Source: Bacteroidales bacterium
GTDB taxonomy: Bacteria > Bacteroidota > Bacteroidia > Bacteroidales > PXBB01
Reading direction: 5' to 3'
DNA length: 39,236 nucleotides
Assembly: GCA_028698995.1 (NCBI GenBank)
Contig: JAQVVM010000044.1
Coordinates: forward strand, 1-39,236
The translations under genes were made by a program, and so were the position numbers. The notes under the pieces are model-generated. The model saw nothing but the letters and a program-made list of their open reading frames with translations. It ran no database searches and was not told where the DNA came from. Positions 26,584 to 38,344 of this stretch are shown here, piece by piece. How positions within the stretch are numbered: the first letter of the stretch is position 1; each line of letters starts with the position of its first letter.

Positions 26584-28425
26584 TTAGTTAATGCCGGTTT
26601 TTGTTTCATGTCTGATAGGTTCAGCAGTTCTCTGTTCAAGGTCTGTGGAAGTTCTTATTTCTGTGGGGAGCAGCAGTGGGGCAGGTGCAAAACGGGTACC
26701 TACATTACGAGAAAACAATTGGCCGTTTTCATCATATTCATCGGCTCTTTGTGCCACTACCGACCAACTGAATGAAGCATCTGACTGGCCGTTATTAAGT
26801 TCAATCACATCAAATCCTGTCTTGCTTTTATTACTTGTATAAACACCATTACATTGTCCCTCAAGCTGTATAAATACCATTATGGGATTGTTTTCGTCAA
26901 CAAATATATTGTGAGAATAAATAGGATCTAAATCAATTCTAGCTCGACCATTTACCAATTGTCCTACTCCGTAATCCATAAAAAGAATATCAGGTGTTTC
27001 GGGACAATACATGATGACTTTATCATTATTAGGGGTGCTGACTATAGAGCTGGCTGTTCCGGATCCAATAACTTTATAAACCGTTCCTCCGCTTGTCTTA
27101 CCGCCAACATATGCATAATTACCAGCTGCATTGCTGAAATACCCGCCCCAGGTATCATTGGCATTATTTACTGCATAACCATAAACACCGATTCGTGTAC
27201 CCGAAAAAGCACCTCCGCTGCCATCGGTAAGAACGGAACCAGTAACATTATTGCTGAGCCCGATTACACCGGCTCCTCCAGTTGCATTCGTAGATACGCC
27301 GTATAAGCCTGCTCCGGTTCCTTTAAAAATACCTCCGGCTCCACCTATATAGGTGCTCAGCCCTAAATTATTTCCTGATGCAGTTACCCCTGTTCCATCT
27401 AAAGCATCTCCTCCCCATAGGGCTAAGGCCACCTGTGTACCTTTGAATGCACCACCACTGCCCGATGTAAGATAGGTTACACTCTGGTTATTACCGCCTC
27501 CGGCTATGGCTGTCCCTGATGTATGGGTGTTCCATCCAAATAAAGCTCCTCCGCCCGACTGGCTCGACTGTGCTCTAACACCTGAGCCATCTCCAGTTCC
27601 TAATGAAGCATTGTTTATACCTAATATTCCGTCCCCAGATGGATTGATGTTGACTCCAGTATTACCAGAATACACAATAGAATTTGAAATACCATAAACA
27701 CCATCTGTTGAAGCACCTCCATTTCCAAAAACTCCGGCACCGGTGTTTGAGTTACTAACACCTAAAATGCCACTATTTGTATTGCCTAATTGGCCATATA
27801 TATCATTGGTATATTTTCCTTCAACGGCAATGGTGCCTCCTCCTCCAATAACATGCAATTTCATAACAGGGGATGTGGTTCCAATACCCACATTGACACC
27901 GTTGTTATATAAAATACTGTTGGCTGTCCATGTGGATCCGTCGTGTCTTAAAGTCTGACCTGAAGTGCCAGCAACTAAAGGTCCGGTTGCGCCTGTAGAG
28001 CCAGTTGCGCCTTGTGCTCCTGTCTGACCGGTTGATCCTTGTTGGCCGGTTGCTCCCTGAGTACCCGTAGGTCCCTGTAACCCTGTTGGGCCTTGAGCTC
28101 CGGTTGCACCAATAATTCCTGTAGGACCGGTAGGGCCTGTTACTCCTGACAGACCAATTATTGGAGCCCATTGTGTGCCATCAAAAAACCAGAACTGGTT
28201 TAAATTGGTATCGTAAACCAATAATCCTGTAGCTGGATTGAAAATATTTGTACGCTCAACACTGGTCATTCGGGGAATCAATAAGCCCTTTTCTGTACTG
28301 CTTACATCAAGCATAGCAGTGTTATGCGCAGCCTGACCACTTGTGTTAATAGCTACGCCTTGTTGCGAAAAAATATTTTGAACGCACACCATCAGGACAA
28401 AAAATAAAACTAATTTTGTTCTCAT
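26584..28425 (-). CDS. Exported collagen-like (Gly-X-Y) protein
   Basis: This 613-residue protein has a signal peptide (1-20). An N-terminal region common in Bacteroidota surface proteins follows ([36 protein letters not shown]). Next comes a collagen-like tract of 19 Gly-X-Y triplets at 94-150, rich in GPT, GAT and [19 protein letters not shown] follows, a phrase found in tail-fibre-like proteins. A glycine-rich region (about 205-440) repeats motifs of the GVFG, GVYG and GGAFKGT type. A non-repetitive C-terminal domain (about 445-613) has DIDLDP-like and [18 protein letters not shown] segments. There is no T9SS signal, so its route to the surface is unclear. It is probably a trimeric fibre or adhesin (inference). 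Confidence 0.82.
27976..28146 (-). repeat. Collagen-like Gly-X-Y tract, 19 uninterrupted triplets
   Basis: It encodes residues 94-150 of the preceding gene. Every third residue is Gly and Thr is common in the Y position (GPT, GAT, GST), as in bacterial collagen-like proteins. The tract is repetitive at DNA level and so could change length by slippage or recombination. Confidence 0.85.
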
Positions 28426-30041: not shown

Positions 30042-30541
30042 TGCAAAGAAATAATTACATCATCACATTGGTTTTTTCATTATGCATAAGCATGAGTATT
30101 ATTTATTATATTCTTGATTTCAGATATAACAGTGCCATTTATACACTTATGAAAATCAGTTCTCTTAGTGAGCAGAATAATCAAGAAATTAATCAGTTGT
30201 GTAATCTTGAATCTTTTGCAGACAGCCTGAATGCCATGTTTTGGGTTTTTGAAAACAATCCTCTAATTAAAAGAGACAGTGCTTTTATTGTAAGTATGAG
30301 ACAATACTATAGTGAAGGGAATTTTAAAAGTTATTTTTTTCAATTGTATAACTACATAAAAACAATAGATGCCTCAATGATATATCAAATTGAAAAGAGA
30401 AAAAACCGGCTTTCTTATGTGTATCAAAGTTATAAACTTGGTTATTCAAATATAAAAGTAGTTTTAAAACTTATTTTTCTAAGGGAAAAAGGGACGTATC
30501 TATTACAATACATTGATAAAATTTATTGTTCAACTATCTGA
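30041..30541 (+). CDS. Small membrane-anchored protein of unknown function
   Basis: This 166-residue protein begins with one hydrophobic segment (YIITLVFSLCISMSIIYYIL, an uncleaved anchor or a signal), followed by a basic, Tyr- and Lys-rich soluble domain predicted to be largely helical. I do not recognise a family. Its ATG overlaps the stop of the preceding membrane protein by one base, so the two probably act together. Its last 19 bases overlap the convergent TMTC-like gene. Confidence 0.6.
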   Translation: MQRNNYIITLVFSLCISMSIIYYILDFRYNSAIYTLMKISSLSEQNNQEINQLCNLESFADSLNAMFWVFENNPLIKRDSAFIVSMRQYYSEGNFKSYFFQLYNYIKTIDASMIYQIEKRKNRLSYVYQSYKLGYSNIKVVLKLIFLREKGTYLLQYIDKIYCSTI

Positions 30542-32577
30542 CAATATGAATTAAACAGATTTTGTGCCTCCTCGCTACCTAGTTGTGCAGCCGCTTTCCA
30601 GTCCTTGCATACATCTTCGATATTTCCAAGCTCTATATTAACGAGTGCACGGTTCAAATAATTTTTAATGTTTTCCGGATTGATATCAATCGCCACATTA
30701 AAATCTGTTAGTGCACCTAAATAATCTTTAGACTGATATCGCAGCCAACCACGATTGATATAAGGTAGCTCGAAATCAGGGTTCTGAGCCAAAGCCATGT
30801 CATAATCATTTAGTGCTCCCTGAAAATCATTCATTGTAAATTTTAGCCATCCTCTGTTATTGTAGGCAATATCTAAAGTAGGCTTTAATAGTATAGCCCT
30901 GTCGAAATCAGCCATTGCTTTTTCATATTCATTTGTCAGAAACCATGTCCAACCCCTGCTGTTATAAGCTTCTGCATAATTAGTATCCAATTCAATAGCT
31001 TTTGTATAATCAATTATGGCTTCTTGGTTTAAATCCATACGATGCTTGGCAAGTCCTCTGTTGTAATAAGCCATGTAATGTCTGCCGTCAAGTTCAATGG
31101 CTCTGGTAAAATCAATAATGGCCTCTGAATTCAAACCCAGTTCCAGTTTGCTGTTTCCACGATTATAATGAGCCTTCACATATTTGGGGTTATACTTTAT
31201 CGCATTGTCAAAATAAACAACAGCTTCCTGATACATTTTCTTTTTATTATAAATAACACCGATGTTATTATAAGCCAACCAAGCTTCCGGATATTTAGCT
31301 ATAGCATCTTTAAAAATGCTTTCGCCATCTCTCCAAACTTTGACCCTTTCGTGAGAAATATATGAGAAAGTAAAAGCGCAAATCAATAAAAAAGATAGCA
31401 TCATTTTTTTATAAAACCCTGATTCAAGGTGCGAATATGAAGCACCGGCCAGAAAAAACAAGCCGATATACGGCAAATACGTATAGCGGTCTGCCGTCAC
31501 AACAACTCCTCCAATAGAATTTACTATATGAAGGACAAGGGAAATATGAATCAGAAAAAACATGGATCCAAAAATCAGTTGACGAGATTTTTTGTAATTT
31601 TTATAAACATAAAAACAAAGTGCACTTACGATTACAATTGAAATGACCGTGGCAATATAGTAAATGGCAGGAAGTACAACCCCCTGAACCGGATAAGGAT
31701 AGAGCAGCGACAACTTAGAAGGCACAAAAGACTTTATGGTGTAAAACATAAACGAATAGCCTCCCAGAAAAATTCTGTCCAAAAAGGTGAATTCAATTTT
31801 TTCGATGTGAGTAGGTGTTTTAACCATGAAGTAATAAGCACCAAATAATGCCATAATAAAAAGAAAAAACAGTTTTTCTGCAATGACCTTTTTATTGATT
31901 TCTCTCTTAAAATAATAATCAAGCAGAAGTAAAAGGGCAGGGAAAGTAACACCTGCCGGTTTTGACAACATCGAAATAGTGATTAAAAGAAGGGTGTAAA
32001 ACAAATAACGGAGTTTGTAATTATTTGTAAGATATTTTATATAACTTATAGATGCCAGTAAATAGAACAAGGCATAAAGCAGATCTTTTCGTTCTGCTAT
32101 CCAGACTACCGATTCAACGTGTAATGGATGAATAGCAAAAAAGAGTGATGCAATCAAAGCTGTGCCCGATTTTTTTGATACAGCATAAATAAATCTGTAA
32201 ACAAGAATGGTGTTTATAAGATGAAACAAGAGATTTGTAATCAGATAAGGGTAGGGCAGGTTATCCCATAAAAAATATTCCAATGCATAAGTGAATAAGG
32301 TAATTGGAATATACCCATAGTAATAGAAACTAGTAAAGATAGTAATGATTCCCTTAACCGAAAAATCTTTTATAATGCTGTTTTCAAGCACATAGACATC
32401 ATCATCATAATAAATAAAGTTATTGTAAATAATGTTTGAAAATACAACAATCGTCAGCAGCAAAATACCCAAGAGCAAGAAATTCGGATTCCTGAAAAGT
32501 GCAGGAACGCCAGTTTTTTTTAATGCCGGTTTTTTTTCATTAATAGATTGAAATGGGCTCCTTTTTTTCTTTTTCAC
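30523..32577 (-). CDS. TMTC-like membrane protein with C-terminal TPR array
   Basis: This 684-residue protein has a short basic cytoplasmic start, then about eleven membrane segments (35-410), then TPRs (431-675). Motifs typical of TMTC/GT-C proteins are visible: the acidic loop FIYYDDDVYV at 54-63, HPLHVESVVWIAERKDLLYA at 150-169, LSKPAGVTFPALLLLLDY and ADRYTYLPYIG. Seven TPR units follow (e.g. AYNNIGVIYNKKKMYQEAVV, AIELDTNYAEAYNSRG). The C-terminal cap has VCKDWKAAAQLGSEEA. In animals TMTC proteins are O-mannosyltransferases; bacterial relatives are not biochemically defined. It is a paralogue of the gene at 35093-36640. It lies 9 bases behind a P-loop kinase gene. Confidence 0.82.
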   Translation of the reverse strand: MKKKKRSPFQSINEKKPALKKTGVPALFRNPNFLLLGILLLTIVVFSNIIYNNFIYYDDDVYVLENSIIKDFSVKGIITIFTSFYYYGYIPITLFTYALEYFLWDNLPYPYLITNLLFHLINTILVYRFIYAVSKKSGTALIASLFFAIHPLHVESVVWIAERKDLLYALFYLLASISYIKYLTNNYKLRYLFYTLLLITISMLSKPAGVTFPALLLLLDYYFKREINKKVIAEKLFFLFIMALFGAYYFMVKTPTHIEKIEFTFLDRIFLGGYSFMFYTIKSFVPSKLSLLYPYPVQGVVLPAIYYIATVISIVIVSALCFYVYKNYKKSRQLIFGSMFFLIHISLVLHIVNSIGGVVVTADRYTYLPYIGLFFLAGASYSHLESGFYKKMMLSFLLICAFTFSYISHERVKVWRDGESIFKDAIAKYPEAWLAYNNIGVIYNKKKMYQEAVVYFDNAIKYNPKYVKAHYNRGNSKLELGLNSEAIIDFTRAIELDGRHYMAYYNRGLAKHRMDLNQEAIIDYTKAIELDTNYAEAYNSRGWTWFLTNEYEKAMADFDRAILLKPTLDIAYNNRGWLKFTMNDFQGALNDYDMALAQNPDFELPYINRGWLRYQSKDYLGALTDFNVAIDINPENIKNYLNRALVNIELGNIEDVCKDWKAAAQLGSEEAQNLFNSYCQIVEQ

Positions 32578-32586
32578 AATGTAAAA

Positions 32587-33150
32587 TTATTCTTTATCAG
32601 TAATTTTTGAAAAAAAACGCTCTATCTGCATATATAATTCATTAAAACCATGGTTGTTTTGAATGATAAAGTCGGCTCTTTCAATGCATTTCGACAGATT
32701 TTGCTTGTTGGGATCATCGGTGTGCATTTCCCGCTTTTCGTTTTCAATAAAAGTATCAAAACTGATTTGGTCGGTTTCAGAATTTCTGTTCACTATCCGT
32801 TCATATCTTATTTTAGAGTCTGCATCTACAGCTAAGAGGTAAAAATTTTGTTTTGTCTGAAGCAAGTCAATTTCTCCGGGGGTTCGAATACTTTCAATAA
32901 TGGTATGGTCTCCTTCTTTAAAAGCTTTCAGATAAAGTTGTTCAACGATATAGGCAGGCCCGAATTTTAGTCTGAGTTCATTGGCTATTTCAACCATTGA
33001 ATCCCTGTTTACCTCCATGCCTCTTTGTCTAATGATATCAATTAAAAAAGTCCTTACCGAATAGTGTCTGAAATTCTTCTTTTGTATCAGATATTCAACG
33101 ACAGTGCCTTTACCTGCTCCGATGGTTCCTGTAATACCTATTATTATCAT
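32587..33150 (-). CDS. P-loop kinase, dephospho-CoA kinase / adenylate kinase-like
   Basis: This 187-residue cytoplasmic protein starts IIIGITGTIGAGKGTVVEYL, a complete Walker A (GTIGAGKGT at 8-16). Later DHTIIESIRTPGEIDLL and VDADSKIRYERI correspond to the substrate- and LID-type segments of dephospho-CoA kinase or nucleotide kinase folds. It is not a clear CoaE: the expected CoaE sequence past the P-loop is missing. It could phosphorylate a nucleotide or CoA precursor, or be a general AAA_18-type kinase. The TMTC-like gene lies 9 bases downstream; no functional link is obvious. Confidence 0.72.
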   Translation of the reverse strand: MIIIGITGTIGAGKGTVVEYLIQKKNFRHYSVRTFLIDIIRQRGMEVNRDSMVEIANELRLKFGPAYIVEQLYLKAFKEGDHTIIESIRTPGEIDLLQTKQNFYLLAVDADSKIRYERIVNRNSETDQISFDTFIENEKREMHTDDPNKQNLSKCIERADFIIQNNHGFNELYMQIERFFSKITDKE

Positions 33151-33217: not shown

Positions 33218-33225
33218 CAAAACTA
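33218..33225 (-). promoter_or_regulatory. Weak candidate -7 element for the P-loop kinase gene
   Basis: Minus-strand TAGTTTTG matches TAnnTTTG but overlaps the first base of the divergent dipeptidase gene and lies 67 bases before the kinase ATG. Confidence 0.25.
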
Positions 33226-34922
33226 TGAAGAATTTGAAAAAAATGATCTTATTTGGACTTTTATTTTTATTGTTTGGGATAATATCTGTACAAGCATGTA
33301 CCAATTTTATAGTTACAAAGGGTGCTTCAAAAGATGGTTCTGTGATGGTCAGTTATGCAGCCGACAGTCATCTTTTGTATGGAGAACTTTACCATTGGCC
33401 AGCTGCGAGATATCAGCCAGGTGCAATGCTTGATATCTATGAATGGGATACAGGGAAATTTTTAGGCCGTATTAAACAAGCTGCAGAAACCTACAATGTT
33501 GTTGGTAATGTGAATGAACATCAGGTTGCTATAGGTGAAACTACTTTCGGTGGCAGAGAAGGACTTGAAGATACCACTGCAATTATTGACTATGGTAGTT
33601 TGATTTACATAACATTGCAAAGAGCTAAGTCAGCCCGTGAAGCTATGAAAATTATGACTGAACTGGTAGCTGAATATGGTTATTACAGCAGTGGAGAGTC
33701 GTTCTCGGTTATTGATAAAAACGAAGCATGGATTCTTGAAATGATTGGTAAAGGCCCGGGCAACAAAGGTGCCGTTTGGGTTGCAAGGTTGATACCGGAC
33801 GGATATGTGTCCGGTCACGCTAATCAGGCCCGAATTACAACTTTTGATTTTCAGCAAAGCAACAACTGGTTTGACCCTAATCAAACCGTTTTTCACGCTC
33901 CTGATGTTATCACATTTGCACGGCAGAAAGGTTATTTCAATGGACAGGACAGGGAATTCAGTTTCTCAGACACATACAATCCTCTGAGTTTTGGGGGAGC
34001 ACGATTTTGCGAAATAAGAGTTTGGGCTTTTTTTAATGCCGTAACAACAGGAATGGAAAGCACATGGGAATATGTCAAAGGTAATGTCCAATTTGATGAA
34101 AAGGGTTATGCTGTTAATAGGATGCCTTTATGGGTGAGGCCTACCAACAAGCTGTCTCATTTTGACATCATGAAATTAATGGGCGACCATCTCGAGGGTA
34201 CTGAACTTGACATGACTAAAGATATTGGTGCCGGTCCTTACAATTGTCCCTACAGATGGAGACCCCTCACATGGACACTTGACGATCAAAAATATTTTAA
34301 CGAACGTGCCGCAGGTACTCAACAAACAGCTTTTTCTTTTGTCGCTCAAATGCGTTCATGGCTGCCTGACCAAATTGGTGGTATCAACTGGTTTGGCCTT
34401 GATGATGCTGCAACCACACTTTATGTACCTATGTACTGTGGTATTACAGATGTACCACGTTCTTTTAAACAGGGGAACGGTAGTTTAATGGTGTTCTCCA
34501 TGGAGTCTGCATTCTGGATATTTAATATGGTGTCAAATTGGGCTTATACGCGTTATAGAGATATGTATCCCGACATTCAAAAAGTTCAGGAAGAGATGTA
34601 TGCTTTGTATGCTGCCGATATTGAGCGAAATGACAGAGAAATTGCCGACTTATTCAATTCTAATAGGGAAGAAGCTATTAATAAAATTACCGATTACAGC
34701 GTAAACGCAGGTGCATTAGCTCATCAAAGATGGGTGGCTTTATACGGCTTTTTGTTTTCAAAATACCTCGATGGCTATATTAAAACTCCGGCTGAAGTTC
34801 CTGAGGGATATAAATTTCACGTCCCTAATTATGAATGGCCGGGTTATGGGGAAGAATGGTATAGAAGAATTGTTAACGAAACCGGTGATCAGTTCAGGCA
34901 AAAACCTACGATGAATGATTAA
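33225..34922 (+). CDS. Secreted family C69 (U34) dipeptidase
   Basis: This 565-residue N-terminal-nucleophile peptidase has a signal peptide ending VQA, directly followed by CTNFIVTKGASKDGSV. Cys25 becomes the N-terminal nucleophile after cleavage, as expected for C69. Other family segments are GNVNEHQVAIGETTFGGRE, SFSVIDKNEAWILEMIGKG and VSGHANQARITTF. It hydrolyses dipeptides in the periplasm or outside the cell. The length is normal for the Bacteroidota form. It converges with the second TMTC-like gene: their intended stop codons are only 14 bases apart. Confidence 0.92.
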   Translation: MKNLKKMILFGLLFLLFGIISVQACTNFIVTKGASKDGSVMVSYAADSHLLYGELYHWPAARYQPGAMLDIYEWDTGKFLGRIKQAAETYNVVGNVNEHQVAIGETTFGGREGLEDTTAIIDYGSLIYITLQRAKSAREAMKIMTELVAEYGYYSSGESFSVIDKNEAWILEMIGKGPGNKGAVWVARLIPDGYVSGHANQARITTFDFQQSNNWFDPNQTVFHAPDVITFARQKGYFNGQDREFSFSDTYNPLSFGGARFCEIRVWAFFNAVTTGMESTWEYVKGNVQFDEKGYAVNRMPLWVRPTNKLSHFDIMKLMGDHLEGTELDMTKDIGAGPYNCPYRWRPLTWTLDDQKYFNERAAGTQQTAFSFVAQMRSWLPDQIGGINWFGLDDAATTLYVPMYCGITDVPRSFKQGNGSLMVFSMESAFWIFNMVSNWAYTRYRDMYPDIQKVQEEMYALYAADIERNDREIADLFNSNREEAINKITDYSVNAGALAHQRWVALYGFLFSKYLDGYIKTPAEVPEGYKFHVPNYEWPGYGEEWYRRIVNETGDQFRQKPTMND

Positions 34923-34942
34923 ATAGTTTTAAGGAACTATTT
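34921..34942. terminator. Weak bidirectional hairpin covering both convergent stop codons
   Basis: AAATAGTT, loop TTAAGG, AACTATTT form a perfect 8-bp, AT-rich inverted repeat. It includes the end of the dipeptidase TAA (34920-34922) and the TAG (34939-34937) that would end the extended TMTC-like frame. It lacks a long U-tract, so termination strength is doubtful. Confidence 0.35.
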
Positions 34943-35092
34943 ACAATACCTTAAAATTAATTCCTCAGACTGGAAAATGTTTAAGTTTTTAGCAGTAGAA
35001 AAATCTTTGCAGGCATTCTCAACTTCACCCATGCGGATAAATATTACGCCGCGATTATAAAAAGCTCTTCCATTAGTAGGATTTAATTTTAT
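34937..35092 (-). pseudogene. In-frame continuation of the TMTC-like gene beyond a premature TAA
   Basis: Directly after the TAA at 35095-35093, the same frame stays open for 51 codons to a TAG. It reads IKLNPTNGRAFYNRGVIFIR, then MGEVENACKDFSTAKNL and ends LILRYCK. This is a further TPR (NPTNGRAFYNRG) and a C-terminal cap matching the end of the paralogue at 30523-32577 (YLNRALVNIELGNIEDVCKD ... AQNLFNSYC). The stop falls at the conserved TPR position that is Ala in the preceding unit (TAAIALMP aligned with LNQ-stop-IKLNP). It was almost certainly coding recently. Confidence 0.82.
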
Positions 35093-36640
35093 TTACTGAT
35101 TGAGGTCTTCCAGTGCGCCAACGAAATTATTGAGATTAAGCCTTGCAATAGCTCTGTCGTTATAGGCATTGGCATCATTGGGCATAAGTGCTATTGCTGC
35201 AGTATAATCCTGTGCCGCTTTCTCAAAATTCTGTAATAAATTATGCACCAAACCCCTGTTATATAGTGTAAATCCATACGAATCATTAAGAGCAATAGCC
35301 CTATCATAATCTTCAAGGGCTTTTTGAATTTCATTCTTATAGTAGAATGCAATTCCCCTTGAATGGTAAGCATAAAAACTGTCGGGGTGTTTTTCTATTA
35401 CATCATCAAACAAAACAATCCCATTAGCCCATACCTTATTGCGATGGTGGGATTGCAAAGTGAAAAACATTACAAAAATTACAAGAACCAATAAGGTTAT
35501 AACCGAAATGCGCCCCTTAAACTGTAGGTATTTGTCTGCAATATATGCTATCCATACTGAAAAACCGATATAGGGCACATAGGTGTAACGCTCTGCCACA
35601 ATAGCACCTCCAACCGGAATAAATTGAATAACAGTAAATATGGTAAAAAGAAAAAACAATAATCCAAATGCAAAAACCTTTTTGTCCTTTAGCAGGAAAT
35701 AGAACCCTGAAACAGAACCCCAGATGATTACGGGACTCGCATAATATATGAAAGGTAAAGCCCCGTTTTCAGTTACCGGATGCGGATAAAATGCCGATAG
35801 ATTTATGGGTAAGAAAAACTTGTACAAATAGAACAACAAGGCATAATGGGCTACAAAAAATCGCTGAATAATGGTATAGTCGGGTGTTAAATACTGTGTT
35901 GATGCACCCTGCGATTTTAATGCAACAATGCCAAAAATAAGGGATAAAACAAAAAATGGTATTATTGGCAGGTATCTTTTGTAGTTGAAATCGGATTCTT
36001 TAAAAAAGACACAAATCAGTAGTACTAAAGGCAGACTTACTGCCGCAGATTTTGACAAAAGAGACAACACAAAGAAAAGAAGAGATGCTAGGTAAAGTTG
36101 TATTTTTTTTAATTCAGAAAATCGCAGAAACATAATCAGTGAAAGCAAGTAAAAAAAAGTATATAGAACATCTTTCCTTTCTGAAATCCATGAAACTGAT
36201 TCAACATGTAAGGGGTGAATAGCAAATAACAATGCTGTAATCAATGAAATATTGCGATTTTTAATCAATATTTTCAAAAAAACAAAGACTAAAAAAACAT
36301 TGCAAATATGTAACAATAAATTACTTACATGATAAGGTTTAGGGTTCAGTTTAAAAAAATGAAATTCAAGGGCATAAGATAATGTTGTCAGAGGATGATA
36401 ATTCCCCATGTGAAATGATGAGAAGATATTTTGAACACTTTCGGCTGAAAGTTTTTTAATAGCTTGGTTGTTTAATATATAACCATCATCATCCCAGTTG
36501 TTTACAAAATCATTGTCTAGTGAGTTAGCATAAACAATAAAGGTAAAAATTAGAACAAGAACGATATAAAAATTATATGAAACAGACGAGCCTTTTGATA
36601 GGCTTTGCCTGCTTTTTATTTTTGCTGCGGACTTTTTCAT
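35093..36640 (-). CDS. TMTC-like membrane protein with TPR array, truncated by an in-frame stop
   Basis: The 515 residues before the TAA have an N-terminal cytoplasmic start, about eleven membrane segments with FVNNWDDDGYIL at 45-56, HPLHVESVSWISERKDVLYT, LLSKSAAVSLPLVLL and ERYTYVPYIG. Three TPRs follow (SRGIAFYYKNEIQKALEDYD, YNRGLVHNLLQNFEKAAQDY and the NDRAIARLNLNNF unit). This is the same architecture as the 684-residue paralogue at 30523-32577. A fourth TPR and the C-terminal cap lie beyond the stop in the same frame, which would make a 567-codon gene down to 34937. The truncated protein may still fold, since the membrane domain is whole. It follows the GH57 gene by 28 bases. Confidence 0.8.
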   Translation of the reverse strand: MKKSAAKIKSRQSLSKGSSVSYNFYIVLVLIFTFIVYANSLDNDFVNNWDDDGYILNNQAIKKLSAESVQNIFSSFHMGNYHPLTTLSYALEFHFFKLNPKPYHVSNLLLHICNVFLVFVFLKILIKNRNISLITALLFAIHPLHVESVSWISERKDVLYTFFYLLSLIMFLRFSELKKIQLYLASLLFFVLSLLSKSAAVSLPLVLLICVFFKESDFNYKRYLPIIPFFVLSLIFGIVALKSQGASTQYLTPDYTIIQRFFVAHYALLFYLYKFFLPINLSAFYPHPVTENGALPFIYYASPVIIWGSVSGFYFLLKDKKVFAFGLLFFLFTIFTVIQFIPVGGAIVAERYTYVPYIGFSVWIAYIADKYLQFKGRISVITLLVLVIFVMFFTLQSHHRNKVWANGIVLFDDVIEKHPDSFYAYHSRGIAFYYKNEIQKALEDYDRAIALNDSYGFTLYNRGLVHNLLQNFEKAAQDYTAAIALMPNDANAYNDRAIARLNLNNFVGALEDLNQ

Positions 36641-36668: not shown

Positions 36669-38321
36669 CTATTTACTTATAAAGTCAAGAATATATTTTT
36701 CAAAATCTTTCTTAGCCATTTTTAAATCTTTAGAAGCAACATTGTCAATAGTGGCAATCACATCTTCATATTCATGCAATTTTCTGATGCCCATCTGAGA
36801 TAGAAGCGTATCCTTCAATTCATCATTTAAATCATTAATAGAATAAGCCAAGAGTTTTACATCAACATCTTTCATTATTTCTTTAATGATTGATTTTGGT
36901 AAAATGTTAATTTTTCTTATATTAAAATTTTCAATAAGCTTTTCAATTTTTTCTTTGTTTGTTGTTTTTGTCTTTCTTTTCTTCATCTTTCTTTTAGGTT
37001 TTAAAGTTTGAGGTTCTTTTATATTTTGCTCTTTTTTTTCTGTCTTCTCTGTGTTTTTTTTCTTAACAGGCTTTATCTCTTTTTTAATTTCAGTATTGAC
37101 AATTTCCGGAACGATGACTTCTTTAAAATTAACAATATTGTTAATCCTTATAGAGAAATCAGCAAGAACATTCATGTAATTAATAAATGCCTCGTAAGGA
37201 CTTGGATATGGATTAAAATATTTATGCACTTCGCCATCTGAAAACCATTTGGTGCACATATAATAAAAATGATCACTGTTTTGAAGTCTTAACCAATCTC
37301 TTTGAATATTTTCATCGTTGCAGATGGTAATTTTTTCTTCCAAATTATACAACTTATTAAAAGCCTCATCCTGCAATTCATTTCCGAGCCAGGCAGTTAC
37401 ATCTCGCTCATCATCTGCCCATGAAATCGGATATGGAACACTGATGGAAGATACCGGTTGCAACTTTTTCCACAATTCGTTTGGTTGACTAAACATGTAA
37501 TTTGATGAACTTAAAACAACCTTGGGCAATTGTTTAATAAAATCAAAGATACCTGTTTCAGCCCATTGATGTTCTCCAAATGTTTCATAATCCATAAAGA
37601 GGTTGATTGTTTCGTTAAAAGGGTCTACATTGTTGAGCCATCCGGTAAACTTCTCGGCTGTGAGTGGCCATTCAGCCCATGATCTATCAGAAAAACGAAA
37701 AGCAATGTCATCACTGAGTCTAAAATTTTTAAGCAATACCTTTAGTTTGGGATTTATGGCATTACAATACATATAATTAGGGCTTTTCCATCCTAAAACA
37801 TGCTTGGCTCCTTCTGTAATCATTGTCCTGAAACCCATTTCCGCAATCTGCTCACCAATCAAATCCGAATAAATTAACTCGGTATTACGAAATGTTTTGG
37901 GCTTTTGCTTAAACAAAACCTCAATTTTTTTAGTGTGGGCATTGATTTGTTTGATAAACTCATTGTTGCTCTTTAGTGAAGATAGGGAATGTGCCTGTGT
38001 TTCAGCAAGGAATTCTACATTGTTGGTTTCTGCCAGTTTCTGAAAACTTTCTAATACGTCTGGTGCGTATAGTTCAAACTGAGCAAGGGCACTTCCCGAA
38101 ATCGAAAAACTGAGTTTAAATAAATTGCCGTATTCTTTTATCATGCTCAGTAAAAGATTATTCGCCGGCAGGTAACATCTTTCAGCCACTTTACGCATGA
38201 TATATCTGTTGGCGTAATCATCAAAATAATCATGTTTGTGTCCGATGTCAAAAAATCTGTAAGTTCTTAGCCTGAACGGTTGGTGAACCTGGAAGTACAA
38301 ACAAATATGTCTTTTATTCAT
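36669..38321 (-). CDS. GH57 alpha-amylase/glucanotransferase with Lys-rich linker and FliG-C-like domain
   Basis: From the ATG at 38321 this is a 550-residue protein (a TTG two codons earlier is less likely). Residues 1-395 are a GH57 catalytic domain: CLYFQVHQPFR at 7-17, RNTELIYSD at 145-153 with the presumed nucleophile Glu148, and MDYETFGEHQW at 243-253 with the presumed acid Asp244. A basic linker (about 411-458) holds many Lys and Glu. Residues about 466-550 resemble the FliG C-terminal helical domain, with SIIKEIMKDVDVKLLAYSI, DELKDTLLSQMGIRKL and EDVIATIDNVASKDLKMAKK. Together with the GT4 upstream it probably acts in cytoplasmic alpha-glucan (glycogen-like) metabolism. The C-terminal domain could serve for oligomerisation or docking (inference). 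Confidence 0.85.
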   Translation of the reverse strand: MNKRHICLYFQVHQPFRLRTYRFFDIGHKHDYFDDYANRYIMRKVAERCYLPANNLLLSMIKEYGNLFKLSFSISGSALAQFELYAPDVLESFQKLAETNNVEFLAETQAHSLSSLKSNNEFIKQINAHTKKIEVLFKQKPKTFRNTELIYSDLIGEQIAEMGFRTMITEGAKHVLGWKSPNYMYCNAINPKLKVLLKNFRLSDDIAFRFSDRSWAEWPLTAEKFTGWLNNVDPFNETINLFMDYETFGEHQWAETGIFDFIKQLPKVVLSSSNYMFSQPNELWKKLQPVSSISVPYPISWADDERDVTAWLGNELQDEAFNKLYNLEEKITICNDENIQRDWLRLQNSDHFYYMCTKWFSDGEVHKYFNPYPSPYEAFINYMNVLADFSIRINNIVNFKEVIVPEIVNTEIKKEIKPVKKKNTEKTEKKEQNIKEPQTLKPKRKMKKRKTKTTNKEKIEKLIENFNIRKINILPKSIIKEIMKDVDVKLLAYSINDLNDELKDTLLSQMGIRKLHEYEDVIATIDNVASKDLKMAKKDFEKYILDFISK

Positions 38322-38344
38322 TATCAAAATATATTTAGTTTTCT

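Follow-up and report, generated by a model that had tools for sequence, protein, structure and literature searches.

Layout of the locus and identity of the encoded protein

The window (the whole stretch of DNA that was analysed, 39,236 nucleotides) carries on its minus strand a gene interrupted by a single in-frame stop codon. Translation of 36640–34923 gives a frame of 515 codons, from 36640 to 35096, which is followed directly by TAA at 35093–35095. Beyond the TAA the same frame stays open for 51 more codons (34940–35092; residues IKLNPTNGRAFYNRGVIFIRMGEVENACKDFSTAKNLNIFQSEELILRYCK) and ends at a TAG (34937–34939), the position at which homologues, as judged from their C-termini, have their natural end. 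A gap of 14 bases separates this TAG from the end, at 34922, of an intact and convergent C69-family dipeptidase gene on the plus strand (33225–34922). On the minus strand at 30523–32577 lies an intact paralogue of the interrupted gene, 684 aa in length and about 38% identical to it.

Searches carried out with the neighbouring dipeptidase and GH57 genes returned homologues, mostly of 43–72% identity, which speak neither for nor against the reading given below. The GH57 gene (36669–38327) encodes a lysine-rich linker and, at the C-terminus, an extension weakly similar to FliG_C (E 1e-4, just below the Pfam cut-off). A small nucleotide-kinase-like gene is located at 32587–33150, and its best NCBIfam matches, all sub-cut-off, include the kinase part of an anti-phage dCTP deaminase. 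A protein with collagen-like GPTG/GATG repeats is encoded at 26584–28425. Terminator-like hairpins were searched for near the TAA and the TAG and none was found. An eight-base AT-rich inverted repeat, AAATAGTT...AACTATTT (34921–34942), overlaps the two convergent stop codons; it is not the minimum-energy fold and was left out of the argument.

The gene product is a TPR-bearing GT-C (PMT/OST-like) membrane glycosyltransferase. Its transmembrane core (residues ~20–405; 35426–36583, minus strand), placed by invariant columns and by the match to STT3 structures, is intact and lies upstream of the stop. The structural model matched oligosaccharyltransferase STT3 chains with Z scores of 20–22 over ~320–334 residues, and in one of these matches (Z 21.9) 332 residues were aligned, within model residues 13–427. 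Pfam PMT_2 was matched at E 3.4e-05, just under its cut-off. D50, D51, R351 and Y354 are invariant in the family and E350 is at least 90% conserved, so that both the DD of the first loop and E350-R351-x-x-Y354 are present. The DD and ERxxY motifs and their roles have been described for the related TMTC proteins (PMC7801869). DUF1736, the Pfam segment that lies between TM7 and TM8 in TMTC proper, gave no match to the query at E 0.001 or 0.01, and the gene is therefore not filed as TMTC proper.

The core is followed by a C-terminal TPR domain (residues 421–567 of the read-through frame; 34940–35380, minus strand), which superposes on OGT and consensus TPR structures with an rmsd of ~1.5 Å. It comprises four TPRs and a capping helix, and the stop interrupts it within helix B of TPR3. 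Thus the part ahead of the stop (35096–36640) encodes the core, TPR1, TPR2 and most of TPR3. The 51 codons behind it encode the end of TPR3, TPR4 and a cap with the family ending ACxD...A..L...YCK.

Coding character of the tail and position of the stop in the fold

From composition alone, the chance of an open stretch of 51 codons is about 2%. Open length is weak as evidence, and it is therefore homology that proves the tail to be coding. An HMM was built from 36 C-terminal segments, all intact, and the tail scored 61.3 bits against it. When the 36 segments were themselves scored leave-one-out, the range was 8.3 to 73.4 with a median of 55.3, and 26 of them fell below the tail. None of 200 shuffles exceeded 5.5 bits, and translation of this DNA in its other frames gave scores below 0. 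The tail aligns over its full length with the natural C-termini of the family, and the ends differ by no more than a few residues (..ACxD...A..L......YCK). When the stop is read through, the Pfam TPR_1 score is 85.9 bits, compared to 56.3 bits without read-through. No second stop or frameshift is present in the tail, and homology to intact family members runs in frame on both sides of the TAA. Codon usage of the tail gave a positive but weak signal and was left out of the proof. Reinitiation after the TAA was rejected, the first in-frame ATG lying about 21 codons into the tail.

An earlier note on this DNA had described an in-frame TAA within a TPR gene, followed by 51 intact homologous codons. 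Its coordinates and its reading were both exact, as judged from the translation and the HMM score of the tail. The accompanying description of the tail, as a TPR and a C-terminal cap ending at a TAG with the convergent dipeptidase stop 14 bases away, agrees with the layout given above.

In the read-through model (mean pLDDT 90), confidence remains high across the stop, with block pLDDT values of 92–97 from residue 501 to the end. Residue 516, the position of the stop, is located inside the helix formed by residues 506–519, which is helix B of TPR3. In the homologue alignment the TAA takes the place of exactly one codon and spacing is unchanged. The column is occupied in 144 homologues by Ala (81), Val (16), Ser (11), Thr (7) or Cys (7), among other residues. 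The conserved small-residue site proposed earlier is thus borne out. The accompanying estimate that one or two substitutions are needed does not hold as the only range: the homologue codons at this column are one change away from TAA in 12 cases, two in 61 and three in 71.

Termination at the TAA would give a protein of 515 residues. In such a protein the membrane catalytic core would be complete and TPR1, TPR2 and most of TPR3 would be kept, while helix B of TPR3 would lack its end and TPR4 and the capping helix would be missing altogether. The truncation would probably destabilise the TPR domain, leaving function impaired or abolished.

Comparison with the family

A total of 156 non-redundant family members were gathered, and for 145 of them the natural 3′ end lies in the available DNA. 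Repeat number varies among these 145; none ends at the position of the TAA and none terminates inside a TPR helix B. Members of any length end with a complete helix pair followed by a terminal helix or cap, the one exception (L080) ending ahead of the TPRs altogether. Relatives that end at the same stop and lack conserved downstream sequence, which the earlier note had named as the finding that would overturn its reading, were sought and none was seen among the 145. At the stop column no homologue has a stop; all those sampled carry a sense codon, none of them being closer than about 47% identity. The query deviates from the conserved columns at 3 of 59, which places it in the middle of the ranking among intact members.

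The homology of the tail, the Ala-rich column and the lack of any member ending there (0/145) together argue that the stop is both secondary and recent. That it is secondary to a longer gene, as had been claimed earlier, is strongly supported by the sequence comparison, the alignment and the read-through fold being in accord with it. By the same comparison, it is not an ancestral end of the gene. Its recency follows from the undegraded tail and from the query's agreement with the conserved columns, which is no worse than that of intact members.

A closer relative was looked for among the relatives, in 393 genomes of the order, in 395 of the class and in a genome collection that was scanned both by single sequence and by profile. 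No close orthologue above about 43–47% identity was found, and the best profile match was 44% identical. The comparison of orthologues suggested earlier could therefore be made only with distant homologues, which uniformly carry a sense codon. Because the searches returned no close orthologue, the event cannot be dated, nor can it be polarised at the codon level.

In this genome the family is represented by 14 strong matches, including the intact copy 4 kb away, and no internal stop is present in the others. One apparent second split member on another contig (C58, at about 10,387 of L085) was rejected, the interruption being a 10-N scaffold gap and nothing else. The same region of that contig (L085, 2654–14578) holds a tandem array of at least six TPR/GT-C members, one of them interrupted by nothing more than the 10-N gap. 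A further apparent split, in genome G048 (L082), was also set aside, since it consists of a frame change and an inserted low-complexity stretch and is not a lone stop. This member (contig C225, about 3085–3290 of L082) is divided over two frames around the low-complexity insert (GERGNGGTGE / SPSPFRPFAPSP), which looks like an inserted small repeat element.

A second case was found in the metagenome-assembled genome SMBSF77. Its family member, on a 3,880-base contig (L034/L076/L154), has a lone in-frame TGA (L076, 2126–2128) in the conserved membrane core (KSAAVT*PVVLLL). Such alleles therefore recur. With two lone nonsense codons among roughly 156 members, they are rare in the family and not unique.

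Origin of the stop

The earlier note had left three alternatives side by side, namely a recent nonsense mutation, an assembly or base-calling error, and stop readthrough. Recent nonsense mutation is the most likely of the three. Probably, then, one copy of a GT-C family that is expanded in this Bacteroidota genome has recently gained one nonsense codon, and the mutation is real. The size of the family in this genome and the lone stop in another MAG make decay of a redundant copy the plain reading. The loss would be tolerated because many paralogues exist.

An error in the consensus is the next explanation to be weighed and is rather unlikely. In that case the TAA would be confined to the consensus, and the gene in the organism itself would run uninterrupted for 567 codons. 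A fully intact tail is what would be expected if the gene were not really broken, and the genome, in 119 contigs, is a draft in which some N gaps occur. An internal stop is often an artefact of assembly, and errors of this kind underlie many of the pseudogenes claimed in published assemblies (PMC11017572). The TAA, however, does not adjoin a gap, and the end of the contig is 4.1 kb away. A heuristic codon-model scan for stops flanked on both sides by 45 or more open codons gave 43 candidates, which were judged by eye; nearly all were ordinary neighbouring genes, and within the 0.9 Mb of the genome scanned no further lone-stop split gene was convincing. The assembly is therefore not riddled with internal stops. 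In addition, 132 of the 144 homologue codons are two or three changes from TAA, so that one wrong base would be enough only if the true codon were one of the rarer neighbours.

It is far less probable that the shortening to 515 residues is stable and the protein functional, the tail being a relic still to decay. Such a form would have its entire GT-C catalytic core as well as two complete TPRs, and TPR number differs widely between family members. Against this, it would be exceptional in its ending, as no member of the 145 stops inside a TPR helix B, and with an undegraded tail any stable shortening must be recent.

Stop-codon readthrough is very improbable. Under this reading, decoding of the TAA at a rate of some use would let a capped form (567 aa) coexist with an uncapped one (515 aa), while TAA otherwise serves as the main stop; the intact coding sequence past the TAA speaks for it. 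On the other side, of the 375 long ORFs in 0.9 Mb of the genome 270 end in TAA, more than in any other stop; none of about 50 tRNA genes has a stop-codon anticodon; RF1 and RF2 both act on UAA; and the stop is kept in no relative (none closer than about 47% identity). The documented cases of readthrough in E. coli involve UGA (PMC5373646).

Recent nonsense mutation thus remains the preferred reading. The case is almost certainly an ordinary nonsense allele of a redundant copy or, less likely, an error of the consensus, rather than a new genetic trick. For annotation, one locus (34937–36640) interrupted by a stop should be recorded rather than a naturally short protein. It serves as one example of copy inactivation in a large redundant Bacteroidota glycosyltransferase family, and has little import beyond annotation. 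If a sense codon is the true state, the locus would be useful for flagging consensus error in this assembly.

The encoded protein resembles the TMTC-like TPR GT-C/PMT-clan glycosyltransferases (PMC7801869) in its N-terminal GT-C core, first-loop DD, ERxxY motif and C-terminal TPR domain. It differs from them in being bacterial, in having no Pfam DUF1736 match and in being truncated within the TPR domain. As an allele, it is comparable to a bacterial pseudogene or null allele with a single internal stop: one disabling stop, in-frame homology on both sides of it, intact paralogues and an otherwise normal gene. Unlike the typical single-stop pseudogene, it would be either very young or very mild, as the catalytic core is kept and the loss is limited to the final 51 codons; its loss of function is what we infer from the truncation.
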